Origin: Bolinopsis microptera
Taxonomy: Eukaryota > Ctenophora > Tentaculata > Lobata > Bolinopsidae
Direction: 5' to 3'
Length of the DNA stretch: 64,000 bases
Assembly (NCBI RefSeq): GCF_026151205.1
Contig: NC_087077.1
Coordinates: 19,837,975-19,901,974, forward strand
The notes under the pieces were generated by a model. That model was given only the letters and a program-made list of their open reading frames with translations, was not told where the DNA came from and made no database searches. Of this stretch, positions 29,608 through 37,358 are shown in pieces. Every line of letters starts with the position of its first letter. The stretch's first letter is position 1. A program made the translations under genes and the position numbers.

Positions 29608-32600
29608 TTAGTTTCCGACTCTCGGTCTCAATTCCATTGTCGCGTCTTGACAGAAACTGTCAGTGAACGGGATGCAGTTAATGTAGATGCAGTTCTCGCA
29701 TGTTGAGCCCTGAAACATTGCTGCTAATTGCACGAACTTGCGAAGTTAAATTTTTAACAATTAACCTAATAATGTGGACAGAAACTTCGGTCTAATGTTA
29801 ACTTCGATTGAAGCTGGTTTACGTTTTGGTGACAGTAAGGGACCCGCAGAATGAGAAGCTCTTAAATAGCTAAAATATTATCATCATACATTTTAAACGA
29901 TCTCTTACTGTCAACAACTCGCAAACCAACTTCGGCCGAAGTAAGCATAGGATTAAAGTTGGCTACATCTTGGTAACAGTAAAACTCTATACGCTTTGTA
30001 GCTAATAATATAGTGGTACTGTCATAATAATGTTGTGATTAAATGAGGGTAATGTGTATGAGCTTACCTGAGCCAGATAGAAGACGATGAAGAGCAGAGC
30101 AAACAACACAACACTCAACACTCCGCACGCAATCTGAACCACCAGTTTAGCGATTCTGTCTTCCTCCGAGAAATTGACATGGGGCAGGATCACAAACGAT
30201 GTCAGAAAACCGAACAAGAAGCTGAAATCAGAATACTTTTAAATCATCTGTCACACTGTTGACTCAAAGTTTAAGATTAAGTGTGATTCAAAATTCCGGC
30301 CATTATAACTCCAACCTTCGTTTCTGTACAAAGTTTTTGACGTATGTTAAAGGTATATCGAGGTACCCTGTATAATACTGCACAGAGAGGCACGGTATAG
30401 AAAGGTTTGCCTGTAGTTATCTTACCCTCCGATATGAGCGAAGTTATCAATCCAAGGAAGCAGACCGGCCAGGAACAAGAGGGCGACTAGGAGAAGGAGT
30501 TTAGCCAGCTCCAGGATTGGGGACTTGTAGATCTTCCAGTTCACCACAACCTCCACTATCAGAGATGCTAACACACCGTACAGTGCTCCTGATGCGCCCA
30601 CCTGGCAAATAATGTTTAGTCAAGTATCATATTATGTGTGTTATATTATTATTATATTATACATATTATACATGTTATATTATTATTATATTATACATAA
30701 TATACATGTTATAACCGTTTTAAGAGTGTTCACATTTTTAAAGGAATTTTGGGTTTTACTAACTTTTTACAATTTTTAGGGCTTATGTCACTGAAGATGA
30801 CGCCTTGCAACATGTTTGACGATAGCCTGTAGATTGATAGTTTGATCTCAGTATTTACAACAATTCATCTAGTTTGATTGATTCAAAGGGAAAAATTCCT
30901 CTTATACATGTTATATTATTATTATATCATATTATACATATTATATTATATTATACATATTATGTGTGAAACGAAATGGAATCACCCCAACAACTGATCA
31001 GAGGCTAAAAATACTTAACAGTGACAAAATGTATTATGTAACCATTATTTTGGACCAAAATTCAGCCCTCAAATGGAGTTGAAAAGATCCACTCTTAAGA
31101 AAGAAATTATTTAGTACTACATAGAATATTTTCTGATTGGATACACAAAAACCATCTGACCCCTCAATCTCCCTCCCTATGTATGTATAATGTGCTCTTA
31201 TTGGTTTGGCCGGTGTACCAAAAACCGGTCCCCAAACAAGTACAACAAACATGATCAACCGGCAAAATAACATTTTTGTCGAACCCGGTCCGCGCGCGCG
31301 TCGTAATTCTAATATCAGCGCAGAGTTGACTGTTTGTAAACGATTCGGCGTAATGTGTTCTCAGCGGCCGCGGTATTCGGATGTAACACAGGTATTTAGT
31401 GGGGTGTTTATTTGGTGGTATGTTTACATAAGGAGAGGTATTCGATAGGAAGCTTCATTACACTATGTTCAGCTGTGAAGCTTACATCCAACACATGTTC
31501 AATAAACTGACCTCGGGTTGGTAAGGGATAAGGATGGCAGATAGCATGGTGCCTCCAATTCCACTAGCGAAGTAGATAAAACCAATCCTCCACCAGCCTG
31601 CAAACTTCTCCATGTCCCTCAATATGGTGGCTTGGAAAACTAACCTGACACATTTTTCCAGTTACAGAAACATACATTTGTCTCCATAATATTTTCTCAA
31701 TTAATTTCAATCTGCCAACATGTGTTATTTGTTGCTAAAACATTAATTAAGGTACCATTATAATATGATACAGTAACATCATTAATAAACTAACGTGATG
31801 ACGAGATGTATAATTCCAGCGTGCATGAATGTAGGGAGTAATGCTCGGTAGAACTGGTCTGGAATGTCGTCAAACAAGAAACCTGACAATCCACAAATAT
31901 CTGTCACACAGCTCACCTGAGCGATTTTAGTATATTAAATAGTAGTTATGTAGTATAATACAGTACAGTACAGCACAGTACAGTACAGTACAGTACAGTA
32001 CAGTACAGTACAGTACAGTACAGTACAGTACAGTACAGTACAGTACAGTACAGTACAGTACAGTACAGTACAGCTCACCTGAGCGATTTTAGTATATTAA
32101 ATAGTAGTTATGTAGTATAATACAGTACTGTACTGTACTGTACTGTACAGTACAGTAAGTTTTCAGTCAATACATTTGATACTTTCGGCTTGAAACACGC
32201 GTTATGATACTCAAAGGTAATATTGAAAGTATGAAGTGTGACATTAATGTAAGTTACTTATTAATATTAATAGAAATACTAGTCTACAAAGTGCATGGTA
32301 ATTAGGTAATATCTATTGAAACTCTGTGCGGGAATATTTAGCGTAAATAGGCTTACTTGAGAGCAGAGAGTTGCGTTTTCGTGGAAGAATCCTTTTCTGA
32401 ACTGACACTCTTCCTGAAACACAAATAATTATTACTATTTCTTTAAAAAGTACTACACATTTGTAGCGTTCACTATGGTGCCATGGCAACGTGTATACGG
32501 AGTAATTATATACTATAAGGAAACTGTGTCCCCACATTTCCTGAACTTGTATTGTACTAGCACATTGTTTGAATTAAACTGTACAGTGTGCATAATGCTA

Positions 32601-35600: not shown

Positions 35601-37358
35601 GTGTGGATCTCTGCATCTCCAGGCAACCTGTTTAATATAAAGGGTAAATAGGCAACTTGAATTTTTTGATATCATTGACTATGTTTCTCATTTCCTTACA
35701 CACGCGTCAAAGATATAGATATATGATAAACTGGTAATTGAATAACTAAGTAAACTAATTGAAAAGTTGCTATGGTTACTTACGTTCCACCCTTTTTAGC
35801 GGTAGTTGCTCCGTCAGGTCCGAAGAACTCGTTATCAGCGAATTTTGTGGAACGGTCCACAGCACAGCCGTGTCTCAAAGTATCCGCTCTTGTCTCCGGC
35901 TGGAAGGGTTAACTTTAGAATTTTATTTATCTGTCGACACTTAATACAGGGACAGGGACAGGGACAGGGACAGGGACAGGGACAGGGACAGGGACAGGGA
36001 CAGGGACAGGGACAGGGACAGGGACAGGGACAGGGACAGGGACAGGGACAGGGACAGGTAGAACTTACGTTAGAATAACCCTGGTAAAAGTTCTTCATCA
36101 TAGTGAAGGCTCCAGGACGCTGTCCTCTCTCCAGGTTTCCAGTGTTGGAATTGTTTCTCTCCACTACGTCCCCCTTCAACTTGTTGGCCCGCATAGTTTG
36201 GTACCTCTGCTGCCAATTGTTGGAGTTCACCCCGGTGCCGCGCCGTCCTCCTTGAAACGCGGCCATCGCCTCCCTGAAACAAACAGTACGATAGCACACT
36301 TTATCATTACTATGGTAGTGACTAGGATACAAGGATACAATCTGGGACTAGTGATCACACTTTATCATTACTAAACTTAGTTCTGCACCCGATTCTGTTG
36401 TACGAAGAGATCAGTATGATTGACATAAAATAACCAAACTCTAGGTCCACATCATACACTAGAGTATGATGTGGACCGATGATATACATTGTACATTGTA
36501 CATACCGTTAGAACCAAGTTAATGGAATACTCACTATAGCTATGGTTACTATAGTTACTATGGTTACTATGGTTACTATGGTTACTACTATACTTACGTA
36601 TTAGGGTTGGCAGTGACATGACCCGCAGGCCCGGCCCATGTTTGGGCCCTCTTAGACATCCCCTTCTATTTTTAACTAAACAACTATAAAACTTACTAGT
36701 TAGCTAGGCAATACAACTTTAACTTATATTTTACAACTATAATAATGGAATTCTATAACAATAATAGGCTAAAAATTAAATAATAAATTACAGAAATGCA
36801 CAACTCTAGTCAATGTAATGGGAGCTGTTATGTAGAATAGATATGCAGCTAAACACTACTTCAGCCATATTGCAAACAGCAGTGATGTAACAGTGTATAC
36901 AATATGATGATAATATAATTTAGCAGCGTGTAAAGGTGAAATCATAATCTATAAATAGATTTCGTTAACACCTCAAACAGCATTACTATTATTACATACA
37001 CTGAAGTGGATCTGTGAACTATAGTATCAGCTGATATAGTTTATCAAGACAATGCTTTATCAAGACATGCTACCAAACCCAAATAACGTGCTACAATCTC
37101 CAACCAAAACACATGCTAAATAACGTGCTACAACCTCCAACCAAAACACATCACAACAGTAAACTCAGATACTTTAAATTACCTCATTTGCGCCTCATTT
37201 CTATTGGTGTGTTCACTGAAACGTTATAACATAAACACACACGAAACACACAAATTAAAATAAACACAATCTGAACTTCGTGTAAATGTCGACTGTTTAA
37301 TTAGTTAAAAACAAATCACTCACGCAGTAGGGTTACTAGGTTCAGGCTTATAGGACAT
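29608..37358 (-). CDS. iRhom-like rhomboid with retained catalytic Ser/His dyad
   Basis: Exons: 36659-36598 (MSKRAQ start), 36273-36069, 35899-35784, 35627-35481, 34411-34315, 34025-33882, 33687-33550, 33324-33232, 33085-32963, 32413-32357, 31916-31795, 31644-31512, 30601-30426, 30221-30068, 29709-29608; frame closes at 622 aa. An alternative start exon at 37358-37324 (MSYKPEP) has the same donor phase. Order: basic cytoplasmic N-terminus; TM1 (about 180-203); a large Cys-rich lumenal iRhom homology domain ([34 protein letters not shown]); then the rhomboid core (FMHAGIIH, LRDMEKFAGWWRI, VGASGALYG, LPWIDNFAHIGG); and a C-terminal CIPFTDSFC tail. Vertebrate iRhoms have GPAG and are inactive chaperones for ADAM17 and EGFR ligands; here S483 and H535 are both present, so proteolysis is possible (inference). 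Not RHBDL-like, because the iRhom domain is complete. Confidence 0.93.
31909..32127. repeat. (CAGTA)n array between two copies of the iRhom exon 11 acceptor
   Basis: A block of about 58 bp containing the exon 11 3' splice site (GCTCACCTGAGCGATTTTAG on the plus strand) is present at 31909-31967 and again at 32071-32127, with about 20 CAGTA pentamers between. On the coding strand the pentamer run has no stop codon in any frame, but the spacer block does. Confidence 0.85.
32771..32944. repeat. (GGTTACTA)n octamer array, iRhom intron
   Basis: About 21 octamers with one AGGCCTAGG interruption at about 32845. The array is bracketed by copies of ATAATACACTATATTT; the lower-copy side adjoins the exon 9 donor (GT at 32961-32962). 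Confidence 0.85.
35947..36057. repeat. (GGGACA)n hexamer array, iRhom intron 2
   Basis: About 18 hexamers. In transcript orientation the array starts about 10 nt after the donor of exon 36273-36069. The Cys/Pro-repeat ORF over it is an artefact of the hexamer. Confidence 0.9.
37183..37215 (-). other. Candidate 33-nt cassette exon of the iRhom-like gene
   Basis: AACGTTTCAG acceptor, then 33 nt open in the phase left by start exon 37358-37324, then a GTAATT donor in phase 2. It encodes about 11 residues ending NEAQMR and joins in frame to exon 36273-36069. A 24-nt look-alike with the same phases (ending NERLMR) lies at 38162-38139 with its own TTTTTTCAG acceptor and GTTGGC donor. Confidence 0.5.

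Follow-up and report, generated by a model that had tools for sequence, protein, structure and literature searches.

The 64,000-nucleotide stretch of the Bolinopsis microptera genome analysed here, hereafter the window (C6:19837975-19901974 of the 264.65-Mb assembly), carries a minus-strand gene at 36659-29608 that belongs to the iRhom (RHBDF) branch of the rhomboid proteins. This gene, which we call iRhom A, has 15 exons, introns that are all GT-AG, and 622 codons followed by a stop. At the rhomboid catalytic site it encodes Ala482-Ser483 (codons GCA and TCA). The original prediction had described exon 30601-30426 as reading VGASGALYG and ending in LPWIDNFAHIGG, downstream of exons with motifs of the iRhom homology domain (IRHD), and both descriptions hold. 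The exon follows a TTTGCCAG acceptor, has AG and GT at its borders, belongs to one open frame of 622 amino acids, and also encodes the histidine of transmembrane helix 6 (TM6).

The exons, all on the minus strand, divide the protein as follows. Exon 1 (36598..36659) supplies the start codon (MSKRAQTW...) and is matched by the first exon of the Mnemiopsis leidyi protein P0003; exons 2 (36069..36273) and 3 (35784..35899) encode the cytoplasmic N terminus, which exon 4 (35481..35627) continues as far as TM1. TM1 lies in exon 5 (34315..34411), together with the equivalent of human iRhom2 Ile386, an ADAM17 contact. The IRHD is spread over exons 6 (33882..34025), 7 (33550..33687, with the equivalent of human Asp475), 8 (33232..33324), 9 (32963..33085, containing RPCCIG) and 10 (32357..32413). 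TM2 is encoded by exon 11 (31795..31916), with His426, His431 and, at the oxyanion Asn position, Thr435, whose codon is split with exon 12 (31512..31644), the exon of TM3. Exon 13 (30426..30601) spans TM4-TM6 and includes Ala482-Ser483, Tyr487 and His535, exon 14 (30068..30221) encodes TM7, and exon 15 (29608..29709) ends the protein with a C-terminal Cys motif and the stop. Short tandem arrays, perfect or near-perfect, lie in the introns (on the plus strand, ACAGGG at 35946-36058, CTAGGTTA at 32769-32945 and TACAG at 31959-32073).

Spliced sequence agrees with this model. P0001, the top database match, agrees with the window protein at 600 of 601 residues (the sole difference is A268V), and it must be spliced because its longest contig is 2746 bp, less than the 6.7 kb of genome that exons 2-15 span. 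The same motif recurs in P0002, M. leidyi P0003 and P0004-P0008; together with the agreement of P0001, this rules out a sequencing error at TCA. P0001 also contains exon 13, and no alternative TM4 exon able to replace it was found within the window. Among the listed matches, identity to the window protein is 95% for P0002, 83% for P0003, 61-75% for P0004-P0008, 53% for P0062 and 36-46% for the remaining rows. P0006 and P0008 (99.5%) probably come from one species, as probably do the window protein and P0001 (99.3%). P0001 and P0005 begin MSHPYYK and MSIPYSR, unlike exon 1 (36659-36598), and the first exon of P0001 (MSHPYYK...) has no match anywhere in the window; the differing starts suggest an alternative first exon.

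Tree, fold and iRhom domain all identify the window gene as a ctenophore orthologue of RHBDF/iRhom. The Pfam Rhomboid domain covers residues 414-550 (E 3.6e-32), and a phmmer search of solved structures matched iRhom2 chain 8snl_B (E 1.9e-114). The four solved chains matched are all iRhoms (iRhom2, 8snl and 9o58; iRhom1, 9q7y and 9xy4), and the three with a printed alignment read VGPAGSQFG at the catalytic site. An AlphaFold2 model of P0001 has seven transmembrane helices (173-192, 423-444, 446-467, 477-493, 501-518, 526-543 and 551-581), and the IRHD lies between TM1 and TM2 with 16 of 16 cysteines kept. The protein clusters with iRhoms, leaving other rhomboids outside, with support of 100/100 with RHBDL outgroups and 99/99 in a tree that adds two paralogues (B and C, below), RBL2 and bacteria. 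Animal iRhom1 and iRhom2 (RHBDF1/2; PDB 8snl, 9q7y) share with it the seven helices, the same 16 cysteines, the TM6 His, the C-terminal Cys motif and the Ile386 and Asp475 equivalents; identity to human iRhom2 is 40.8% across 463 residues. They differ in having Pro-Ala where the window protein has Ala-Ser, and Phe where it has Tyr, three residues past the Gly after the catalytic site. The window protein also has a cytoplasmic part of just 176 residues before TM1, without a PF12595 match; PF12595 is likewise unmatched in many of the listed invertebrate iRhoms. NCBIfam gave no family for P0001 or P0003.

The one feature that could suggest a misassigned RHBDL protein is the motif, which resembles that of an active rhomboid: RHBDL2 and Drosophila Rhomboid-1 share GASG and the Ser-His dyad. 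However, these proteins have no IRHD, carry the TM2 Asn and form a separate clade, and the window protein has an IRHD and does not group with RHBDL2/rho in the tree. An RHBDL identity or a gene-model artefact is refuted by the IRHD, fold, clade and spliced sequence, and we give it practically no credence.

To place the catalytic site among iRhoms we aligned the window protein with 219 others, taken from the best 120 of 883 and the best 120 of 171 matches. The alignment holds nine ctenophore rows (window, P0001-P0008), 210 other rows with the column, and P0062, a truncated ctenophore-like protein with no letters at the site. The rows are redundant and vertebrate-rich, with isoforms counted separately. 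P0003 alone is a named ctenophore; identity assigned P0001, P0002 and P0004-P0008 to ctenophores, an assignment that a 100/100 clade also supports for P0001 and P0004-P0007. The residue before the serine site is Ala in 9/9 ctenophore rows and Pro in 210/210 others. The serine position is Ser in all nine ctenophore rows, and Ala in 167 and Ser in 43 (as GPSG) of the others. The second His of TM2 is kept in 9/9 and 205/210 rows, respectively, and the TM6 His likewise in every ctenophore row. The GPSG rows include cnidarians (among them Nematostella, Actinia and Hydractinia), a sponge and a number of molluscs and arthropods. Cnidarian and sponge proteins of this type (Nematostella P0021, Corticium P0051) resemble the ctenophore ones in keeping Ser and His, lacking Asn and having 16/16 IRHD cysteines, but they carry the proline reported as disabling rhomboids, which ctenophores are without.

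Zettl et al. 2011 (PMC3149277) call this proline invariant in iRhoms and describe one or both catalytic residues as missing; inserted Pro abolished Rhomboid-1 activity, left AarA almost inactive and greatly lowered the activity of RHBDL2. The window protein has neither mark of an iRhom pseudoprotease: Ala482 stands in place of the proline, and Ser483 and His535 are both present. An iRhom architecture with a kept serine, as originally predicted, is thus what we find, with IRHD and clade in agreement. The accompanying premise, loss of the serine as the defining feature of iRhoms, does not survive, given the 43 GPSG rows and the definition in Zettl et al. We conclude that the ctenophore anomaly is the absent Pro with the dyad kept, not the retained Ser as such. 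Because the tests for the proline and for loss of Ser or His both came out negative, we file the protein by descent as an RHBDF/iRhom orthologue and not as a proven inactive rhomboid. Among open-licence PubMed Central papers we found no published record of a Pro-free, dyad-keeping ctenophore iRhom.

The site was also compared with rhomboids outside animals. A single scan of prokaryotic genomes yielded 66 rhomboid-domain relatives (5 archaeal by title), all with Ala at -1, Ser, TM2 His, Asn and TM6 His when aligned to the window protein. The fetch patterns for these loci contained both His, and the pattern for choosing reading frames accepted N/S/T at the Asn site and S/A at the Ser site, with no locus lost; the count at -1 alone is wholly independent of pattern choice. 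Ctenophore iRhom A differs from the prokaryotic proteins at one of the five positions (Asn), and the other iRhom rows depart from them at no fewer than two (Pro and Asn). By the marks of S54 proteases, the window protein has the GxSG Ser, the TM6 His and the TM2 His. With RBL2 and the canonical bacterial type (VGASGAIFG...DNxAHxGG) it shares Ala-Ser and both His; these differ in having the TM2 Asn and no IRHD. Rhomboids of the best eleven scan loci (L012-L022), most of them in metagenome bins of Bacilli and Tenericutes, show 31-38% identity to the ctenophore rhomboid domain (33-38% for the first ten). Two further candidate marks were dropped. Tyr or Phe at the Tyr487 position is uninformative because Phe occurs in 44/66 prokaryotic rhomboids (Tyr in 2/66), and the changed Trp of the WR motif is no evidence against activity, the residue being Trp in 34/66 and Tyr in 13/66.

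A PF01694 search of the assembly gave seven matches, one of them the window exon; such exon-by-exon matches are lower bounds, and more iRhoms may exist. Two of the other genes are iRhom paralogues, both predicted and seen in this genome only. iRhom B (L005, with L009 and L010; C6:5571836-5574772) is intron-bearing; the nine exons modelled, spanning TM1 to TM7, encode 416 residues with no stop. It reads VGASGSLFG, HGGILHLLTS and LPWIDNWAHVGG, keeping GASG and the His, and is 49.3% identical to the window protein over 404 residues, with 16/16 IRHD cysteines. By eye, a charged, diverged stretch separates its TM4 and TM5. iRhom C (L001, with L008; C1:14924097-14927510) is a single 496-amino-acid open frame with IRHD motifs, 36.5% identical over 397 residues, with 12/16 cysteines. 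Its site reads CGAGGPVYG and LPYLDNFANIGG, with Ser replaced by Gly and the TM6 His by Asn. The proline is absent from all three paralogues, and iRhom C, as predicted from its sequence, is an independent, Pro-free loss of the dyad within the same genome.

According to Lu et al. 2024 (PMC11248996), ADAM17 is held by iRhom2 TM1 (Ile386, essential) and by the IRHD (Asp475, which restrains the prodomain), and the TM2/TM5 gate, the protease-substrate route, is not used for ADAM17. The Ile386 and Asp475 equivalents are kept in 8/8 aligned ctenophore rows of gene A (window, P0001-P0007); iRhom B has Val and Asp at these positions, and iRhom C has Phe and Ser. We consider it probable that iRhom A serves as a cofactor of the iRhom type whose dyad is unblocked and may be weakly active. 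It most likely acts as an iRhom cofactor, with a main job that would consist of binding and escorting a membrane metalloprotease client via TM1 and the IRHD. Behind the TM2/TM5 gate, the one-time active site may never have closed, or may have reopened, and any activity could be weak or substrate-restricted. Animals as a whole may have lost the catalytic centre in steps, the TM2 Asn going first, Ala then changing to Pro, and Ser being lost last.

Several observations weigh against this proposal. The window protein lacks one residue expected of an active S54 protease, the TM2 oxyanion-hole Asn: it has Thr435, where the 66 prokaryotic rows have Asn. The nine ctenophore rows have Thr (6) or Ser (3) at this position, and the 210 other iRhom rows have Ser (138), Thr (70), Val (1) or Ile (1), none of either set having Asn. 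The retained dyad is no proof of catalysis, because Pro-blocked iRhoms still keep the TM6 His (206/210) and Ser (43/210). In addition, the other six mutated ADAM17-contact positions (409, 419, 529, 535, 536 and 550) all differ between the window protein and human iRhom2, and P0007 retains Glu529. Other iRhoms also vary at these six sites, with two human residues retained in the sponge (Ala535, His536), one in Nematostella (Leu409) and four changes in a fish iRhom. Lu et al. 2024 (PMC11248996) report little effect of mutants at the six positions.

A plain pseudoprotease, in which relic Ser and His are kept for structure and cleavage ended with the loss of the oxyanion-hole Asn, would account for these dyad and Asn counts and also for paralogue C, which lost both catalytic residues and is still an open frame. 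Yet iRhom A has no known block to catalysis at Ser or at -1. The stretch flanking its Ser, 465-488 (GGTMLSAILIPYQPEVGASGALYG), is moreover the longest invariant run in eight ctenophore rows, with 24 residues (the runner-up has 13). Across six other groups (5-10 rows each, two overlapping), 13-20 of these 24 columns are invariant; in vertebrates, where divergence is similar to that of ctenophores (lowest identity 67 vs 69%), 19 are invariant. This block lends mild support to selection on the site. The Asn is reportedly essential in Drosophila Rhomboid-1 and non-essential in GlpG. In inhibitor-bound GlpG, as described in PMC5746060, the TM2 His, which is kept here, bonds the oxyanion together with the backbone amide of Ser, and with Asn154 it bonds a further carbonyl oxygen; PMC3690538 has His150, Asn154 and water modelled at the GlpG oxyanion site. 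Balancing these points, we put the plain pseudoprotease slightly below an even prospect. Protease activity of iRhom A is possible and not expected with confidence, and additional cleavage by the cofactor seems a minority outcome. We conclude that the ctenophore iRhom departs from the residue pattern of an inactive rhomboid and, at one residue, from that of an active one.

The Ala at -1 may be ancestral, the ctenophore split predating the Ala-to-Pro change and the iRhom domain having been gained before catalysis was lost; we regard this as evenly poised. Ala at -1 in 66/66 prokaryotic rhomboids, in 4/4 RHBDL2/rho rows and in RBL2, and the want of Pro in the three ctenophore paralogues found, argue for it. 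On the other side, the position is not always Ala in rhomboids, being Phe in the rhomboid-like loci L002 and L007 of this genome and Ser in RHBDL3. Schultz et al. 2023 (PMC10232365) use synteny to place ctenophores as the sister group of other animals; given that tree and the Ala of the outgroup rows used, one Ala-to-Pro change in other animals would be the simplest account.

The gene trees do not fix the branching point of ctenophores, and some lean against the ancestral state. With RHBDL outgroups, the ctenophore-first, sponge-first and Cnidaria+Bilateria versus ctenophores+sponge arrangements each came out 1.62-1.63 log units better than the free search (approximately unbiased test, p-AU 0.70); the Pro-bearing iRhoms as one clade were 1.62 units better than the free tree, and sponge-first was equally good. 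When B, C, RBL2 and bacteria were added, ctenophores joined the one sponge (98/97), with p-AU of 0.053 for one Pro clade, 0.062 for A+B+C as one clade and 0.044 for sponge-first. Without B and C the sponge still grouped with ctenophores (96/93); the deficit was 2.18 log units for the one-Pro-clade tree (p-AU 0.18) and 2.19 for sponge-first (p-AU 0.17). When the alignment was restricted to 135 rhomboid columns, C fell outside all other iRhoms (99/95) and A+B grouped with cnidarians (97/86), a result unfavourable to the ancestral reading. Long branches lead to B, C, the sponge and the outgroups, and for these the tool warns of false joins; the listed rows include one named sponge and none named as placozoan or choanoflagellate. 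The original prediction stands in part: the iRhom architecture and clade, the kept Ser and His and the exon in a spliced sequence are supported, and activity and an ancestral state are possibilities.

The nesting of ctenophore A+B in some trees would suit a reversal, in which Pro arose once in stem animals and returned to Ala before the ctenophore duplications, possibly through one base (CCA to GCA). Such a change must predate the A/B/C split or recur, would restore the motif of active rhomboids, and costs one extra step under a ctenophore-sister species tree; we consider it rather unlikely.

A bolder version of the cofactor proposal gives iRhom A (and B) two functions, ADAM17-type escort via TM1 and the IRHD and cutting at the free TM2/TM5 gate. 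The architecture would then have preceded the loss of catalysis, the GPxG proline would be derived, and C would represent a second, independent route to a pseudoprotease; we judge this combination unlikely. The proline, called invariant in iRhoms and taken as their disabling feature, seems to be absent throughout ctenophores. With at least three paralogues in one genome, two keeping the dyad and one without it, the order of the steps by which a pseudoprotease arises becomes testable, and the site offers a rare-character lead on early animal branching.

Other rhomboid-like loci in this genome (L002/L003, L006 and L007) carry GFSG or GFSC. L002 and L003 form a tandem pair at C12:7066019-7072508, two frames about 3 kb apart whose 358-amino-acid translations look identical, and L006 is a diverged copy about 170 kb off. 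Elsewhere in the window, a 336-amino-acid open frame at 3871-4878 on the plus strand resembles, by eye, a seven-transmembrane receptor, and open frames at 24661-26119 on the minus strand resemble, also by eye, a reverse transcriptase of the long interspersed nuclear element (LINE) type. A 4-kb TCC-rich low-complexity array at 47792-51825 seems to contain an internal direct duplication of ~1.9 kb, with the same open reading frames at 48264 and 50162.

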